From contig DATKYK010000040.1 of the NCBI GenBank assembly GCA_035528575.1, forward strand, positions 1-64,000: a stretch of 64,000 nucleotides of DNA, written 5' to 3'. The position numbers were made by a program, and so were the translations under genes. Source of the stretch: Dehalococcoidia bacterium. GTDB lineage: Bacteria; Chloroflexota; Dehalococcoidia; E44-bin15. Below, in pieces: positions 8,139 to 21,594 of this stretch. Below the pieces are notes generated by a model. That model searched no databases and had not been told where the DNA came from. It saw only the letters and a program-made list of their open reading frames with translations. Numbering within the stretch: the stretch's first letter is position 1; each line of letters opens with the position of its first letter.

Positions 8139-8290
8139 TTTGCTGTGCGAAGGAGACGTAATCGGTATAAATAATGGATACTCTAAACTCCTAGAATAAT
8201 ATTGTCAAGCTTGCGCAAGCCTAATTATAGCCACATCCTATACGTGGCTCTCGTAGTTTTACCCTATTTCATTCTGCTAAGGCCTTATCC

Positions 8291-9229
8291 CTACCCTGTC
8301 TGCTCCTGAGCTAATAGCCGCACATCTAATGGCTTACCTTTCCTCTCGTCGCGTACTAGCGACAAGGCCTTCATAGGGCACTGTCCCACGCATACCCCGC
8401 ACCCCATGCAGGTGTCCCGATTAATAACGACTGTCCCTTCTACTCGAATAGCCCCGAAGGGGCAAGCGTCTTCACAAACTGGACACGGCGTGCACTGTGC
8501 CGCGTCCACCTGGGACACATAGCCTGACGATGCCATAATCGGCATGCCATATTTTACCATGGCCTCGATTCCGCCGCAGCAGCACTTGCAGCAGTTGCAC
8601 ATGCCATAGAAGCGATCTATGCAGGCATCCTTGAACCAGGCGGAGTGCACGTGACCACGCTCATGCGCTGCCTTAAGTAGTTCAAGGGCCTCTTCTCGTG
8701 TAATACGGCGGCTGGTTTTAGGGTTGTGCTCCAGGGCGAAATCGGTGAATGGTTGGCAGATGTACATGCAGACCTGGGTTGGCTGGCAATGGCTTTCGCG
8801 TGCATGACGGCAAGCGCACTCGTAAACGACCACTTCACGCGGTCCCTTGAGTACCAAATCCCGAGCTGTGGAATAAGGAATAATCTGCTCCAGGTCTCCA
8901 TGATGGATTTCGTGATCAGTTGTGAGCATGGCTTCAGCTTGTTCGTGTGTGAGCACCTTGCCGTGGTAGCGGTTAGACCACCACCGCTTTCCAAATGGCC
9001 CCAGGCGGGGAATGGCGTAGTTTATAGCAAGGTAAATGTATGGGTTTCTCCAGCGGGTATAGATATATCCGTGCAGGGCACTGAGATTGAGCAATCGCCG
9101 TAAACCAGCCTCCCGCATCCACTTCCAGGTCGAGGGGCGTAAGGGCCTCCAGCGTTCACCCCACAGCCACAAAGCCAGCACTATTACCAGGAATGCTCCG
9201 ATGACAGTGAGTACGATGGTCAGCAACAT
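8291..9229 (-). CDS. Membrane-anchored cysteine-rich iron-sulfur protein with two C-terminal 4Fe-4S ferredoxin motifs
   Basis: 312 residues. Residues 1-25 form one membrane span (MLLTIVLTVIGAFLVIVLAL). A middle part has unusual Cys clusters: YECACRHARESHCQ, VCMYICQPF, and MCNCCKCCCGG. The C-terminus has two ferredoxin motifs, CTPCPVCEDACP and CMGCGVCVGQCP, each able to hold a 4Fe-4S cluster. It resembles membrane-associated electron carriers rather than soluble ferredoxins. It is upstream of, and on the same strand as, the three CrtI-like flavoproteins, so it may take electrons from them to the membrane; that link is inference. The middle clusters could hold further Fe-S centres or zinc. Confidence 0.8.
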   Translation of the reverse strand: MLLTIVLTVIGAFLVIVLALWLWGERWRPLRPSTWKWMREAGLRRLLNLSALHGYIYTRWRNPYIYLAINYAIPRLGPFGKRWWSNRYHGKVLTHEQAEAMLTTDHEIHHGDLEQIIPYSTARDLVLKGPREVVVYECACRHARESHCQPTQVCMYICQPFTDFALEHNPKTSRRITREEALELLKAAHERGHVHSAWFKDACIDRFYGMCNCCKCCCGGIEAMVKYGMPIMASSGYVSQVDAAQCTPCPVCEDACPFGAIRVEGTVVINRDTCMGCGVCVGQCPMKALSLVRDERKGKPLDVRLLAQEQTG

Positions 9230-9272
9230 TTTAGGTTTATCATTATGAGGGATAACAATTTATGCAATCCAT

Positions 9273-9731
9273 TTAACTTTTAAGTTTCTCTGCGAGATTT
9301 TTTAGCAGTGATTGGAGCGTAGCCGCGCATTTTTGATATATTTCAATGCCCTGAAGATACGGGTCGGGGACATCACCACTCTCCCCAACATATTCCGATA
9401 GCAGATGGGTTTTCTTGGCCGCATTGGGGAACCGAGATAAGACCATGTCCCTGTGACGGGACTCCATCACCAGAACCAGGTCAGCCCATTGGACTAAATC
9501 GCTCGTTATCGACTTTGGCTGGTGGCTATTCAGGTTTAACCCGTATTCGGCCATACACTCGATGGCCTCCGGCGTAGCAGAATCTAGCCCTATACCTGTA
9601 CCGGCACTGTCTACCTCGATACAGGCTGATAGGAGCGATGGATCGTTATTGACCAGTTTTTTAAATATGACCTGTGCCATAGGGCTGCGGCAGGCATTCC
9701 CGGTGCAGACGAACAGTACCCCTTTAATCAT
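9273..9731 (-). CDS. Low-molecular-weight protein tyrosine phosphatase / arsenate reductase-like protein
   Basis: 152 residues, the usual LMW-PTP length. The P-loop VCTGNACRS gives the C-x5-R catalytic motif (Cys9, Arg15), and the general-acid loop DVPDPYLQG supplies Asp123. It has the family's DSAGTG segment after strand 2. Substrate could be phosphotyrosine proteins; some relatives reduce arsenate, but no thioredoxin-linked Cys pair or ars gene is near. The ATG overlaps the stop codon of the upstream nuclease gene (ATGA at 9728-9731), so the two are translationally coupled. That pairing is unusual and may point to a shared role. Confidence 0.92.
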   Translation of the reverse strand: MIKGVLFVCTGNACRSPMAQVIFKKLVNNDPSLLSACIEVDSAGTGIGLDSATPEAIECMAEYGLNLNSHQPKSITSDLVQWADLVLVMESRHRDMVLSRFPNAAKKTHLLSEYVGESGDVPDPYLQGIEIYQKCAATLQSLLKNLAEKLKS

Positions 9732-16483: not shown

Positions 16484-16714
16484 TTAATATAGATGGCTTA
16501 TAGGGCTAAAATAGCTACGGATTTGCGGGAGCAACTCAGCTGGTAGAGTCCCTGCCTTACAAGCACTATTTAGCTTTGTCCTGTGAACGTTTGTGAACGA
16601 GTATATAGCACCTTGGAGCTTTTCTGGACATTTCCTTTGACCACTCAATATCATACTCAGGTAAGATGGACTAACTTCTAATTCCTTTGCCAGTTGCCTT
16701 AATGACTTCCTCAT
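16484..16714 (-). CDS. XRE-like helix-turn-helix ORF; predicted N-terminal piece of the element's split integrase
   Basis: 76 codons. Residues 1-35 (MRKSLRQLAKELEVSPSYLS, then MILSGQRKCPEKL) are a compact XRE-type HTH. From residue 51 the protein is only the antisense translation of the att core, then 12 residues of host sequence (IRSYFSPISHLY). The recombinase ORF at the other end reads the same core in the same frame. Excision through the core would fuse codons 1-50 here to codons 11-292 of the recombinase ORF as one 332-codon gene. The ATG overlaps the TGA of the excisionase-like gene (ATGA at 16711-16714). I infer an int(N) fragment; it may also act alone as a repressor. Confidence 0.7.
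   Translation of the reverse strand: MRKSLRQLAKELEVSPSYLSMILSGQRKCPEKLQGAIYSFTNVHRTKLNSACKAGTLPAELLPQIRSYFSPISHLY
16522..16565 (+). repeat. Left attachment site: 5' fragment of tRNA-Val
   Basis: 44 bases identical to 21516-21559: three upstream bases plus tRNA positions 1-41, from the acceptor strand to just past the anticodon. The sequence diverges from the tRNA at 16566, so this is a fragment, not a functional tRNA. In the minus-strand frame it encodes ACKAGTLPAELLPQ, the tail region of the XRE-like ORF. Confidence 0.9.
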
Positions 16715-16875
16715 TGTTTGCCTCCCTTTGGTTTCCTCTTCCTCTTATAGTTCAGCTCTAACACTACCCAGTCTCGTCCTAGCTTCTTGCCTTTGATTTC
16801 ACCTGCTTTAAGTAGGCGACGCACTTGGCTATCATCCAGGCCGAGTTGTTGTGCTGCTTCTTTTGTGGAGTACAT
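16711..16875 (-). CDS. Excisionase-like helix-turn-helix protein
   Basis: 54 residues from the ATG at 16875 (MYSTKEAAQQLGLDDSQVRR), with an AlpA/Xis-type winged HTH: the KEAAQQLGLDDSQVRRLLKA helix pair, then GEIKGKKLGRDWVV, and a basic tail KRKRKPKGGKQ. The frame is open further upstream, but GAGGTGAT eight bases before 16875 and a strong promoter at 16894-16922 favour this start. It overlaps the XRE-like gene by 4 bases. In family terms it should bind near the att site and direct excision or repress its own promoter. Confidence 0.75.
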   Translation of the reverse strand: MYSTKEAAQQLGLDDSQVRRLLKAGEIKGKKLGRDWVVLELNYKRKRKPKGGKQ

Positions 16876-16893
16876 AGGCATCACCTCAAGAGT

Positions 16894-16922
16894 AGTATAC
16901 ACGCATACAGGCATAAAGTCAA
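16894..16922 (-). promoter_or_regulatory. Promoter of the xis-like / int(N) operon
   Basis: On the minus strand: TTGACT (16922-16917), 17-base spacer, TATACT (16899-16894). Predicted start near 16887, leaving a leader of about a dozen bases that holds GAGGTGAT. In the excised circle the same transcript would run across the att site into the recombinase. Confidence 0.65.
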
Positions 16923-16932
16923 GGCAGACAGC

Positions 16933-16961
16933 TTGTGTCCACAATCGGAACACTGTATCAT
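16933..16961 (+). promoter_or_regulatory. Divergent promoter for the rightward element genes
   Basis: TTGTGT (16933-16938), 17-base spacer, TATCAT (16956-16961) preceded by TG. It starts 11 bases beyond the opposing promoter's -35, so one repressor bound between could control both directions. Confidence 0.45.
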
Positions 16962-16992
16962 CTTAACAGTCCCTACGTTAGCTGGAGGTACG

Positions 16993-17667
16993 TTGGTAAC
17001 TTTTGACTTTGACATTATCCGTAGCCAGTATATTGATTACCTGTTTTGTCTGTTGGCACGACATGAACCATTTACACAGCGACTAGAGGAGTTAAGGCAG
17101 GCTTATTCAGCCCTGATAAGGTATCATTCATGGGCTGAGATAAATGTCCTCAAATCAGTAGAAGCCCCAAAATCTGGAATGAAACAAGATAGCGCACAGG
17201 CTAAACAATACTATGAAAGCCTATCAGTGTTGGTAAAGGAATACGGTTTGAACCCAGATTGGGCGATTGAAAGAATCAACTACGGCATAGTATATCCAAA
17301 CGCTCTGGTCATTGGCGCTGTGGACTCAATTGAAATAGAGCCAAGACAATACACGATAACCTGGGATACCCGGTCTTTTCCAACTAAGAAACGAATAGAG
17401 GAGGACATACTTAAGCAATTGGAGGCGCAATGGTGTGACTATGAGCAGACCATGATAAAGGCTGGATTTATAAGAACACGAAAGCGGGGAGCATTTGAAG
17501 GCCATATGCGGTGGGTTTTCAAACGAATTTGCCTTAAACAAAGTTGGAGCCAAATTGCTGCACAAGAACACGCTGATATGGATAGGATAAGGAAATCAGT
17601 TGTCCCAATCATCAATTTGTTGGGACTTGAACAACCTAAGTTGAAGGGTGGAAGACCTAGGAAATAA
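16993..17667 (+). CDS. Uncharacterised element protein with C-terminal HTH-like helices
   Basis: 224 residues from a TTG at 16993 with GGAGGT just upstream. The frame is open from 16825, but that would overlap the divergent excisionase gene and its promoter. No family recognised. The N-terminal half is helical (YIDYLFCLLARHEPFTQRLE). A beta segment follows (RQYTITWDTRSFPTKKRIEE), then KQSWSQIAAQEHADMDRIRK, which resembles a helix-turn-helix, and a basic end LKGGRPRK. A terminator follows within 25 bases, so it is probably monocistronic. DNA binding in replication or control is a guess. Confidence 0.6.
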   Translation: MVTFDFDIIRSQYIDYLFCLLARHEPFTQRLEELRQAYSALIRYHSWAEINVLKSVEAPKSGMKQDSAQAKQYYESLSVLVKEYGLNPDWAIERINYGIVYPNALVIGAVDSIEIEPRQYTITWDTRSFPTKKRIEEDILKQLEAQWCDYEQTMIKAGFIRTRKRGAFEGHMRWVFKRICLKQSWSQIAAQEHADMDRIRKSVVPIINLLGLEQPKLKGGRPRK

Positions 17668-17691
17668 CTGAATTTTCCTGCAATTAACGGA

Positions 17692-17725
17692 GCGCTCACT
17701 AAAAACAGTGGGCGCTTTTAATTTT
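17692..17725 (+). terminator. Rho-independent terminator
   Basis: GCGCTCACT, loop AAAAAC, AGTGGGCGC (9 bp with one T-G pair), then TTTTAATTTT. It directly follows the gene ending at 17667. Confidence 0.75.
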
Positions 17726-17805
17726 AGCGTTTTTTCCAATTTTTTACACACACATAAAATGTTAAGCTGTTAATAGTGAATATGAACAATGACTAGAGGT
17801 GAGAG

Positions 17806-18012
17806 GTGGAAGAGAAGCTAAAGACCGGGCGAGATTATCGGGCTGAAATGGCAAGAAATTACTTGCTACTCTACGAGGTAGCGGCGGCTATCGGTGTGCA
17901 TCCAGTGAGATTGGGGAGAATGCTTAGAGAAAAAGAACCTATTACTGGGTCGGTTAGGAAAAAACTTGATGCCTTTCTGGAGAAGAAGGAGATAGATAAA
18001 AATGTCGGCTAA
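17806..18012 (+). CDS. Small HTH-like element protein
   Basis: 68 residues from a GTG at 17806 with GAGGTGA at 17796-17802. The middle (YEVAAAIGVHPVRLGRMLRE) looks like a Cro/XRE-type or DNA-binding helix pair; the ends are charged (MEEKLKTGRDYRAEMARNY; KKLDAFLEKKEIDKNVG). It overlaps the following ATPase gene by 11 bases, so the two are co-translated. Such small proteins in integrated plasmids are often copy-control or replication accessory factors, but nothing here proves that. Confidence 0.55.
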   Translation: MEEKLKTGRDYRAEMARNYLLLYEVAAAIGVHPVRLGRMLREKEPITGSVRKKLDAFLEKKEIDKNVG

Positions 18013-19024
18013 GTCAGCCAATGAAATGAACATAGCTGACATACTCCAACCTGCCATAGACGCAATGCTACGGGCTTCAGGACTAAAACTGAACCAAGCC
18101 AAGACCTCTGTCTATTATGCTGTGGTGACATGGTTACGTAATGAACTGGATTTCATTCCGATACTGGAATTCAGGGGCAATTCGGGAACTGGTAAAACTG
18201 CTGCCATAGACCAGTTACAGAAGCTACTTGCTTACCCACAGATGATAAATGGTAGGACTTACTCTGATATTGGTGCCAATCTTAATAATGTACATACAGC
18301 CATAATTGAAGAAGGTGATTTTAAGCAAGAGAGACCTGAAGAACTGGTTAGGGATAGATGCACAAAGAAATTTGCTATTCAGGTTATACACAAACCACCT
18401 AGGCAGGACGCTACTACCATCTACAACTTTGGAGCCACAGTTATCCATAAGAGACAGCCGTTTGTTGATACAGCAACGAGGAACAGAACTATAATTATTA
18501 AAACTCGCAGGGCACCTGGAAAATATTCACCGACAGAAATAACTAATGCATCAGTGAGGGAAGTGGCGGAGCTTATGAAAGGAAAATTAACACAGATTGA
18601 GACATCGGATAGGATTTCCGACGCTTGGAAACCGCTGACGATGGTGGCAACCTTCTGCGGGGATAACGATTGGCTGGAGTATGAGCTTGAGGAAATGGCT
18701 AGGGCTGCCAGAGCTTTAGCCATGGGAGACCAATATGAACCAGAAGATATAATGATTAAGGCTATAATAGCGGCTTCAGAAAAGGGATTCAAACATAATA
18801 TCAAGTTGGTAGAAATTAAAAATACCATGAGAGAGCACTTTGACTTGAAGTGGAGCACCCAGAAAATCCACGCCATGATAGAGGATTTGGGATTCAGCGT
18901 TAAGTTCTATGCTGGTTATGATTGGCTCGTAGCCAACGAGGAGTTGCTTGAAAGGTTGGCTAAAGAAAGGAATTTAGACCTTGGTTCAACAGAGCTTGAC
19001 TTACGTACCAGAGATTTTCAATAG
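18002..19024 (+). CDS. P-loop ATPase, probable replication helicase-like protein of the element
   Basis: 340 residues. Walker A is FRGNSGTGKTAAID (about residue 60), with a Walker B-like stretch HTAIIEEGDF (about residue 100) and an arginine-rich part (DTATRNRTIIIKTRRAP) that could act as sensor or arginine finger. The C-terminal part (MREHFDLKWSTQKIHAMIED) looks like a winged helix. The arrangement resembles primase/D5-like or SF3-like helicases of small replicons. It overlaps the small HTH gene by 11 bases and is followed at once by a symmetric iteron array, the usual layout of a rep gene and its origin. Family assignment is tentative. Confidence 0.6.
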   Translation: MSAKSANEMNIADILQPAIDAMLRASGLKLNQAKTSVYYAVVTWLRNELDFIPILEFRGNSGTGKTAAIDQLQKLLAYPQMINGRTYSDIGANLNNVHTAIIEEGDFKQERPEELVRDRCTKKFAIQVIHKPPRQDATTIYNFGATVIHKRQPFVDTATRNRTIIIKTRRAPGKYSPTEITNASVREVAELMKGKLTQIETSDRISDAWKPLTMVATFCGDNDWLEYELEEMARAARALAMGDQYEPEDIMIKAIIAASEKGFKHNIKLVEIKNTMREHFDLKWSTQKIHAMIEDLGFSVKFYAGYDWLVANEELLERLAKERNLDLGSTELDLRTRDFQ

Positions 19025-19106
19025 TAGAAAATATTAGTAGATATTCTCTCTATATATAAAAAATATATTATTAACTAGAGAAAGAATCTACTAAAAACTT
19101 CTACTA
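19022..19106. repeat. Symmetric iteron array around an AT-rich core; candidate replication origin
   Basis: TAGTAGA occurs at 19022-19028 and 19035-19041; its reverse complement TCTACTA occurs at 19087-19093 and 19100-19106. Both pairs have the same 13-base period, and the four are mirror-symmetric around an almost pure A/T centre (19050-19074). The first iteron includes the stop codon of the ATPase gene. Confidence 0.55.
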
Positions 19107-19703
19107 AATATGTGAATAACCGGAAGTCTCATGCTTTGTAAACACTGAATTTCTAGCTTTGACTTAGGGACATTTATGGACATTTCAGTAATCGGGGCAG
19201 TTAGCTAATGTACACAGCGACTAATTTTGAGACTGAGCCCGGTTGAAATTCGTTTTGTTGATATTGACAAGGGCAATAGCAGTCTAGAAGGATTGGGATT
19301 ACCTGCTGACAGGGAAGGGTGGGGCTGGGTGGGGCTATACTGCGGTGGTATTTGTCTCCAATAGTCCAACAAATAAGTGCAGTTCTTCAGCATATCGCTT
19401 TTATTGATGTTGACAACCTGGCACCTCAAGAGTATCATCGCCTACCTTTACTACTGCCTGACAACCTTTTACCAAGCCCGCACTACGGTATTGACGTGTG
19501 TCAAAGCCTCCCTACAAAAAACCACATTTTTATAAGTGTTTTCCCCACAATAATAAATACATACTTTCCCCACAAAAGATACATAATTTCCTGACAGACA
19601 AATGGCACATCTTGTGTTACTCTTAATATGAGCGGTTGCTAGGCGCTTCCTGCAAGTGGCCACAATCACATATAGATAAAAAGGTAATAGGGTTTGGAGG
19701 CAG
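19107..19703. other. Element non-coding region
   Basis: About 600 bases with no recognisable protein. Two copies of TTTCCCCACAA lie near 19540 and 19564, each 7 of 9 to a DnaA box, which fits an origin region but is weak. A 91-codon open frame at 19319-19594 has no ribosome binding site or familiar sequence. Confidence 0.35.
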
Positions 19704-20129
19704 ATGATGGAATTAAACATTGGTTCTAATATAATTAGAAACACAAGCGGCGTTTTGAGGGTGCAGGGAAAGGATCAGGTCTTTCTCGAAATCGGAGAAG
19801 ATGGTCAACTATTGCTGACCATGGACATTCATGACTCAAACCGCAACCATGTGGCGAAACTTCGCCGCAATGCGTGGGTGTTTAACAATAAGGAGCAATT
19901 TGAGGTTACTACAAGTCCAAAATCCTTGCAGTTAAAAGACAAGGAATCTGGAGCAGTCGTTGTAGAAGTAAAGGTTTTGGACAAAGGCAATATAGAAATT
20001 CCATGTGGGGAGTTTTACACTCATATAGGTAACCTACTGGAGATTACTCCTCAGTATTGGCGTATTGGTGGGTTGACAATGAGCAATAACATATTTGATG
20101 GATGTGGCGGTACTGTGGAAATCGGGTGA
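19704..20129 (+). CDS. Uncharacterised element protein
   Basis: 141 residues with GGAGG just before the ATG pair at 19704/19707. Composition is beta-rich with alternating polar and hydrophobic residues (FLEIGEDGQLLLTMDIHD; LQLKDKESGAVVVEVKVLDK) and ends GGLTMSNNIFDGCGGTVEIG. No membrane span or signal peptide. I do not recognise the family. It lies between the presumed origin and the recombinase, in the position of a cargo or accessory gene, and appears to be a single-gene unit. Confidence 0.55.
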   Translation: MMELNIGSNIIRNTSGVLRVQGKDQVFLEIGEDGQLLLTMDIHDSNRNHVAKLRRNAWVFNNKEQFEVTTSPKSLQLKDKESGAVVVEVKVLDKGNIEIPCGEFYTHIGNLLEITPQYWRIGGLTMSNNIFDGCGGTVEIG

Positions 20130-20169
20130 CTGATATTGTGAGTGCTATTCTAGCATGAGAGTATAGTGA

Positions 20170-20519
20170 AGTTTCAAGCTATCCTCAAACCTCACTGGCC
20201 TAGTGTAGCGTTCCATCGTTTGACTTCTATTTAAAAGAGCAAACTGGGCACTGGTCAATGGAGCATTTTAGAAAAACATCCCCATAAGAAAGGGTAAATA
20301 TCGGGGGCTACCCGATATGGCTGGCCCCACTCGCTTACAGATATGCAAATCTTGGAGCACCTATTGGCACTTAATTTGGAACGTGCAGCAGTATAATCCT
20401 TGTGTATAGCTAAGGCTAGAGGACTGAACATAGAGAGCAAATATTTCACCCCAACGGCTGCTTATAAAAACTTCAGGCTATCCTTATATTCAACCGACCT
20501 GGTGTATCGCTACACCGTA
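20170..20519 (-). repeat. Inverted copies of the host dispersed repeats inside the element
   Basis: 20447-20518 is the near-exact reverse complement of the repeat at 35180-35261 (shared part ACCAGGTCGGTTGAATATGA). A diverged copy lies at 20170-20220. 20303-20328 is the reverse of the GGGGCCACCC...GGGTAGCCCC hairpin module found from 30 kb onward. The rest of 20130-20709 holds nothing I can identify. Confidence 0.65.
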
Positions 20520-20709
20520 TCCAAGCTATCCCATCTATCCCAACTTCTCTCTGTATGACCTTAGCCGGTTTTTGACTTGGAGTAAATTCCCAGAGTGGAG
20601 ATAGAAAACACAAGTTTATCTGAAAACAAATTGACCCGTAGCACCATAGCACGGCTCCAGACCGCTTTCAGCTTCAGGTTGTGAACATTTAGCTTTGAGT
20701 CCCTGCTAC

Positions 20710-21507
20710 TTAGGCATATGTGTTCACAACCTTGTATACCTTCAAAGCATCCTCAAAGGTTAGCGATTGGGCATAGTGGCTGACCATATCGGGAGACTCC
20801 CAACCACCTAAGCTCTGAATAACCTTGTTTGACAGTCCTGATTTGACGTTGTGGACACAGAAGCCACGCCTAAAGCTGTGAGCATTACACTTTATACCCA
20901 TAGCTTCTCCTAACCTTTGTAGCATAGTCTGTATTCCGTGAGTGGTTATTCCTAGGTCGTCATGCTTGGTGAACCAGTCCTTTACAGCACCATTACCAGC
21001 TAGAGCCTTGCGATAGCGATTGCCTTTGCCCAAGACGGTAACTGTTCCTTCAGTCCAGTCAAAGTCCTTAGCCTTCACGCTGGCAGCTTCAGATAATCTC
21101 ATTCCTGAATACCATAGCAGGTTGAGAGTAACTTTGTCCCTCTCGGTAAGAGCATGATTAACCAGAATGTCTAGCTGTTCCTTTGATATGGCTGGCAGTA
21201 TCTTCTTTTGCCTTCGTGGTGGTAATACCTTCTCAATAGGATTGTTGGGAAGCTGGTCAGTATGATATAGCCACCTGCAAAGGGTTTTGATACAGCGGTA
21301 GTAATTATGTTTGGCATTACCGCAGGTAAGGGAATTGATATAAGCGTTGATTCCTTCTGGATTTAACGGATAGCCAACAAAGTTATCAAGGGTCAGGTGG
21401 TAAATTTCTATGGTCTTAGGACTTGTGCCTGATGGTCTGGATTTGATAAACTTATCAAGAAGCTCTTTTGTGAACTGTTCACAACTTTGATTGCCGTTAT
21501 CAGACAA
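20710..21507 (-). CDS. Tyrosine recombinase; catalytic int(C) part of a split integrase
   Basis: 265 residues if started at the TTG at 21507; the frame is open back to an ATG at 21588 inside the tRNA, which only adds antisense tRNA translation. It has an N-terminal SAM-like core-binding domain (SPKTIEIYHLTLDNFVGYPL), then the catalytic domain: Arg in SGMRLSEAASVK, Lys in VLGKGNRYRK, HSFRRG (H-x-x-R), GGWESPDMVSHY with the Tyr nucleophile in SHYAQS. No good promoter or Shine-Dalgarno is seen in the integrated state. In the circle it would continue the XRE-like ORF in frame and use that promoter. It should recombine the 44-base core in tRNA-Val. Confidence 0.88.
   Translation of the reverse strand: MSDNGNQSCEQFTKELLDKFIKSRPSGTSPKTIEIYHLTLDNFVGYPLNPEGINAYINSLTCGNAKHNYYRCIKTLCRWLYHTDQLPNNPIEKVLPPRRQKKILPAISKEQLDILVNHALTERDKVTLNLLWYSGMRLSEAASVKAKDFDWTEGTVTVLGKGNRYRKALAGNGAVKDWFTKHDDLGITTHGIQTMLQRLGEAMGIKCNAHSFRRGFCVHNVKSGLSNKVIQSLGGWESPDMVSHYAQSLTFEDALKVYKVVNTYA
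21443..21484. promoter_or_regulatory. Two palindromes at the recombinase 5' end (putative arm or operator sites)
   Basis: TTGATAA-AC-TTATCAA at 21443-21458 and TTGTGAAC-T-GTTCACAA at 21468-21484, both perfect. The half-site TTGTGAAC recurs at 16591-16598, as TGTGAAC at 16582-16588, at 20679-20686, and inverted at 20722-20729, all near element ends or the recombinase gene. Confidence 0.5.
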
Positions 21508-21515
21508 AAAATAGC

Positions 21516-21559
21516 TTTGCGGGAGCAACTCAGCTGGTAGAGTCCCTGCCTTACAAGCA
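21516..21559 (+). repeat. Right attachment site (core overlapping tRNA-Val 5' part)
   Basis: 44 bases identical to 16522-16565. It supplies positions 1-41 of the functional tRNA-Val, so the element donates the 5' part of the gene on integration. Confidence 0.9.
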
Positions 21560-21594
21560 GGTTGTCGCGGGTTCGAGCCCCGTCTCACGCTCCA
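21519..21594 (+). tRNA. tRNA-Val (anticodon TAC)
   Basis: 76 bases including an encoded CCA. The acceptor stem GCGGGAG pairs with CTCACGC with one G-A mismatch. The D-arm is ACTC/GAGT with loop AGCTGGTA. The anticodon arm is CCTGC-CTTACAA-GCAGG (TAC at the centre). The T-arm is GCGGG-TTCGAGC-CCCGT. The 5' 41 bases come from the integrated element. Confidence 0.93.

Follow-up and report, generated by a model that had tools for sequence, protein, structure and literature searches.

An integrase gene divided at tRNA-Val

The window analysed here, a stretch of 64,000 nucleotides from a Dehalococcoidia bacterium (GCA_035528575.1, contig DATKYK010000040.1, positions 1 to 64,000), contains a 4,994-bp integrated element (16522-21515) at a tRNA-Val gene with anticodon TAC, and the coding sequence of its tyrosine integrase (int) is distributed over both ends of the element. 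The element is bounded by a perfect 44-bp repeat (16522-16565 and 21516-21559), the attachment (att) core, which cannot be extended by a single base at either end. The right copy comprises the first 41 of the 76 tRNA-Val bases plus 3 bases upstream and forms the 5' part of the intact tRNA gene (21519-21594, plus strand, located with ARAGORN), i.e., of the integration target that is restored at this end; the left copy is a displaced fragment of the same tRNA gene.

Both cores are also read as protein on the minus strand. Two open reading frames (ORFs), 16484-16714 (76 aa) and 20710-21588 (292 aa), pass through them in the same frame and give ACKAGTLPAELLPQ in each case, so that the exact repeat and the shared peptide bear out what a first-pass annotation of this DNA had proposed. 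At the left end lies int(N) (16566-16714, minus strand), which provides the integrase start codon and a helix-turn-helix (HTH) of the XRE/HTH_3 type, and whose frame crosses the core and ends with a stop at 16484, while int(C) at the right end (20710-21515, minus strand) encodes the core-binding and catalytic domains of a tyrosine recombinase. When the two ends are joined as they would be in a circle, a single ORF of 332 codons results, starting with the ATG at 16714, and the predicted order is recovered, namely an XRE-like HTH, a tRNA-encoded linker, a core-binding domain and the catalytic domain.

Membership of the C-terminal part in the tyrosine recombinases is documented by PF00589 (Phage_integrase; 69.8 bits against a curated cut-off of 27.1). 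The catalytic R, K, HxxR, W and Y positions are conserved in the A1 elements, as read from the alignment, and XerA (PDB) is matched over residues 72-244, core-binding region included. The assignment of the N-terminus to the XRE type holds for the 76-aa ORF, where HTH_3 scores 24.3 bits against the Pfam cut-off of 23, but narrowly misses in the joined protein (22.0 bits), with 26-31 bits in the relatives tested. Pfam scans of int(C) and of the joined proteins gave no match to PF16795 (Phage_integr_3).

The two halves are equipped very differently for expression. Directly upstream of int(N) lies an excisionase-like HTH gene (xis; 16711-16881, minus strand; TIGR01764, 33.5 bits against a cut-off of 28.8), the TGA of which overlaps the int ATG (ATGA), and a promoter-like site, TTGACT-17-TATACT (16894-16922, minus strand; consensus match only), precedes this pair. 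A purine-rich ribosome site stands ahead of the int(N) start in most of the related elements described below, for example AAGGAGGTCAAATG or AAAGGAGGCAAAATG. A scan of 38 int(C) frames, by contrast, revealed no start common to all, and 32 of them lack any start codon with a five-base Shine-Dalgarno match; in several, the stretch from the upstream stop to the core-binding domain is free of ATG, GTG and TTG codons. In the window, int(C) is antisense to tRNA-Val, with no promoter-like site ahead of it. Given these missing starts, the catalytic half alone is not a normal gene.

Related elements in Dehalococcoidia

The closest comparison is offered by a second element of the same genome, L009, which lies on another contig beside tRNA-Glu(CTC) and encodes a recombinase 62% identical to that of the window. 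It measures 8,048 bp, its 44-bp cores agree at 43/44 positions, and its joined frame again has 332 codons, starting MRRQNDIAKELGISKSYLSMILSGQRK. The tRNA, the core sequence and the codon phase all differ from those of the tRNA-Val element, yet the outcome of the split is the same. Including these two, nine elements with both cores on one contig were assembled as type A (the window element, L009, L047, L050, L051, L052, L086, L063, and L068). The joined frame is open and begins with an XRE-like HTH in 9/9, with lengths of 326-346 codons and with a core start that falls, from element to element, in codon phase 0, 1 or 2. Chance is no reasonable explanation for the shared frame, because the tRNA-Glu homolog also joins in frame and all nine elements do so despite their differing core phases. 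The separation of an HTH-bearing int(N) from a catalytic int(C), which had been likened to SSV viruses, is thus an anatomy shared by many related bacterial elements. An HTH-less recombinase, which would have spoken against this anatomy, was not met among elements with both ends readable, apart from imperfect extra repeats that were not counted (a 73/83 repeat in L059, and two further repeats in L063 without a joined HTH).

The nine elements occupy six tRNA isotypes (Val, Glu, Arg, Ala, Phe, and Gln), and the linker is drawn from different parts of these genes: from the antisense 5' half in the tRNA-Val and tRNA-Glu elements, from the sense 3' half in the tRNA-Arg and tRNA-Ala elements, from the sense 5' half in the tRNA-Gln element, and from antisense sequence in the tRNA-Phe element. 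Placement of the core in the 5' part of the tRNA, as noted initially, is therefore true of tRNA-Val but not essential to the arrangement. For the 2,496-bp tRNA-Ala element, L052, the empty site was found, with left flank, core and right flank contiguous in three relatives (L143, L138, and L137).

Between elements, synonymous sites are near saturation, and the ratio of nonsynonymous to synonymous divergence (pN/pS) lies at 0.20-0.39 in int(C) and at 0.24-0.62 in int(N), hence both halves have been maintained as protein over time. As the assembled copies are all integrated, this selection presumably acts in a state where int is whole. Decayed int(C) copies with stops or frameshifts occur in several relatives, and int(C) is often intact.

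A second arrangement, type B, is represented by L010 (same genome as the window), L064 (a single-contig genome) and L065, in which exact cores of 50-53 bp are located before the HTH. The int(C) of these elements still encodes both HTH and recombinase, lacking no more than the start codon and ~10-15 codons; in all three, the intact tRNA stands at the int(N) end. Since HTH and recombinase form one uninterrupted frame here, type B supports the joined protein of type A. Matches to the type B query in viral contigs were distant integrases (24-29% identity) or short C-terminal matches.

As to distribution, relatives were found in 32 of 393 genomes of the same class, and in a sample of 400 genomes from the phylum the strong matches were confined to that class. 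A scan of genome contigs returned 19 close relatives, all from metagenome-assembled genomes (MAGs) of Dehalococcoidia or other Chloroflexota; none of these matches starts before about residue 51, hence none includes the HTH.

Several of the relatives show features of their own. L052 (520-3067) is a 2.5-kb element with int, two small ORFs and little else, and may represent a minimal or dependent element. In L009, at tRNA-Glu, an AAA_25 (RepA-like) ATPase is encoded at 8266-9510, which fits a plasmid-like circular stage. The tRNA-Arg locus L047 (G134:C49) is an array with three cores (at 597, 6692, and 8873 in int orientation), two int(N) and one int(C), and its second interval holds a xis-like gene and no recombinase. 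The genome of the window also harbors a degraded fragment of a related recombinase (L012, G000:C24) and, besides the type B element L010 (G000:C21), a degraded type B copy (L011, G000:C9).

Candidate arm sites and the proposed cycle

The hexamer GTTCAC recurs on both sides of the cores. In the tRNA-Val element it is present twice on the int(N) side (16583-16588 and 16593-16598, both minus strand) and twice on the int(C) side (21470-21475, minus strand, and 21477-21482, plus strand, inverted relative to its neighbor). Each of the eight int(N)/int(C) pairings in the close group has one or two copies of GTTCAC, on one strand or the other, on the int(N) side and two on the int(C) side, at most ~45 bases from the core. 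Over ten pairings, 29 sites were counted in 2.2 kb beside the cores, as opposed to 34 in the 53 kb of interior element sequence and 0 in the chromosomal flanks; they are found in all three codon phases and in both orientations, and the motif is also present in 15 of 16 further int(C) fragments. When codons were reshuffled synonymously, 0 of 2000 trials reached the observed counts on either side (13 and 14 sites, as compared to means of 1.6 and 4.2). GTTCAC is accordingly read as a candidate arm-type site for Int or Xis, and because it flanks the core within the gene and is commoner than the protein sequence demands, int probably contains all of attP. A further short sequence, AGCTA or its complement, recurs very near the core on both sides in the A1 elements and is a possible extra protein-binding site.

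We consider it very probable that the element integrates into the tRNA gene by means of a tyrosine integrase whose own gene contains the attP of the element, so that integration splits int. The following cycle is proposed from sequence. In the circular form, xis and int would be transcribed together as an overlapping pair, yielding the full-length Int of 332 residues, the HTH of which would bind the predicted GTTCAC arm sites that flank the core and are themselves coding sequence. Int would then recombine the core within its own linker coding sequence with tRNA-Val, and the integration would sever the HTH-encoding part of int from the catalytic part. One end of the element would thereby keep the promoter, the ribosome site, xis and the HTH, and the other a catalytic half that has neither promoter nor start codon. 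Such a split would inactivate Int, and integration would be irreversible until another circular copy supplied full-length Int in trans, the course also proposed for the suicidal integrases of archaea (PMC8371274). The repeats, the split, the joined frame, the missing starts, the motif and the empty site in relatives are read directly from sequence; excision by way of a circle, binding of the HTH to GTTCAC, inactivity of Int(C) and rescue in trans are inferred.

Of the alternatives, the one that survives best accepts that the gene is split and supposes that the integrated copy nevertheless yields Int(C), whether by read-through out of the tRNA or from a cryptic start, and that together with Xis this Int(C) excises the element without a need for full-length Int. 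The frequent intactness of int(C) is in its favor, as are the tRNA-Arg and tRNA-Ala elements, where int(C) lies downstream of the tRNA and in the same direction, with a GTG in the T-loop part. At tRNA-Val, however, int(C) faces the opposite way behind no promoter-like site, several relatives offer it no start codon, and some copies are interrupted by stops or frameshifts, hence activity of the integrated Int(C) seems improbable. Far less credit is due to a reading in which the HTH ORF encodes a small regulator of its own beside xis, the frame is open across the core by accident, and the recombinase, translated from a start in or next to the tRNA, is still active in the integrated state. Genes for xis-like and small HTH proteins are indeed common near att sites, and some int(C) frames do contain GTG or TTG codons, such as the GTG at 21588, but an accidental frame is hard to reconcile with in-frame joining in every type A element over three core phases, with an HTH frame that stays open up to the core in all nine, with the int(C) frames that have no start codon before the core-binding domain, and with the continuous HTH-recombinase frame of type B. 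Least probable of all is a fossil whose int was broken by a recent aberrant event with no regular cycle, as the decay of int(C) in several relatives might suggest, since the break point recurs across tRNA genes and genomes, both halves are under purifying selection and the cores are exact or near-exact.

Some observations weigh against the splitting of int by integration. An intact int(N)-core-int(C) gene was not found in genome contigs (those of the window's own assembly included), viral contigs, phages or plasmids, and no empty tRNA-Val site for the window's own locus was found in related genomes, the neighbors of the locus not being syntenic there. The type A hosts are MAGs only, the nine elements are mutually related and hence not fully independent cases, and the second end was not found in many relatives, many of which lie at contig ends. 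GTTCAC is moreover absent beside the cores of L063 and L068, the two most distant type A elements.

Relation to known integrases and further features of the element

Self-disrupting integrases are stated twice in a 2021 review to be exclusively archaeal, with a single-event origin suggested, and PF16795 is given there for the integrases of the SSV, pTN3-like and pT26-2-like groups (PMC8371274). As in SSV1/SSV2, pTN3 and pT26-2, a tRNA-derived att core of ~45 bp lies inside int and integration leaves an int(N) and a catalytic int(C), and the SSV-type elements are likewise small and target tRNA genes (PMC8371274). In contrast to these, the Dehalococcoidia family has bacterial hosts, no PF16795 match, an XRE-type HTH at the N-terminus, a xis-like gene overlapping int and an arm-like motif flanking the core. 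SSV-type integrases are described as needing no directionality factor in vitro, whereas the present element carries an excisionase-like gene and may thus differ in this respect. The family is SSV-type in its logic, yet stands outside the SSV-type class by two features, PF16795 and the archaeal host.

Among bacteria, phage Mx8 is the nearest precedent known to us. Its integration reportedly alters the C-terminus of the integrase IntP, to go by the title of a 1996 paper by Tojo, whereas here the start codon, the promoter and the N-terminal HTH are severed. What the two share is a bacterial int gene spanning attP, and the Islander paper names Mx8 alongside SSV as having integrases that extend across attP (PMC4383910). 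The initial expectation of few or no bacterial cases is therefore nearly right by the account of the review (PMC8371274), with Mx8 as the qualification (PMC4383910). In the integration-dependent immunity of mycobacteriophage BPs, attP also lies inside an ORF and integration changes a protein (PMC4557955), but it is the repressor that is cut and the truncated form is active, while here attP lies in the integrase frame. Lambda-type integrases resemble the joined protein in their N-terminal DNA-binding domain, in arm sites flanking the core (candidates here) and in an excisionase partner (excisionase-like here), and differ in that the candidate arm sites and the core of the Dehalococcoidia elements are inside int, which is not intact after integration. 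Full-text literature searches, with most subscription papers outside their scope, brought up no report of a bacterial integrase that severs its own N-terminal domain.

A broader proposal, to which we give an even chance, is that self-splitting integrases of bacteria arose independently of those of archaea and represent a family-wide device of Dehalococcoidia, in which the att site takes at least two positions, one ahead of the HTH and one behind it. It further holds that attP would be wholly protein-coding, that each change of tRNA would rewrite ~14-17 linker residues, that the split would serve as a directionality switch and that the left-over Xis-Int(N) may act on incoming copies. If this is true, a bacterial family with a different N-terminus, an excisionase-like partner and arm-like sites would make self-splitting a strategy that evolved more than once, and the excision and target change of self-splitting elements would become testable in bacteria. 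Self-splitting would also explain why these integrases appear as headless ORFs starting inside tRNA genes.

The cargo of the tRNA-Val element (17044-20129, plus strand) consists of four ORFs, for which no named phage structural family was matched among those tested and no informative family overall. They are an ORF without family (17044-17664), a small HTH-like ORF (17806-18012), an ORF of 340 aa (18002-19024) and one of 141 aa (19704-20129). The 340-aa product carries the P-loop-like motif GNSGTGKTA, has no Pfam, PHROG or NCBIfam family and is possibly a replication ATPase.

Integration also rearranges the surroundings of the tRNA. The 5' half of tRNA-Val and its upstream region (21440-21518) are element-derived after integration, and a promoter-like site directly left of the left core (16484-16512, plus strand; consensus match only) is probably the displaced native tRNA-Val promoter, left behind at the left end (16484-16521), where it faces the antisense int(N). 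The sequence AAATAGC is common to both regions (21440-21518 and 16484-16521), a few bases upstream of the core in each.

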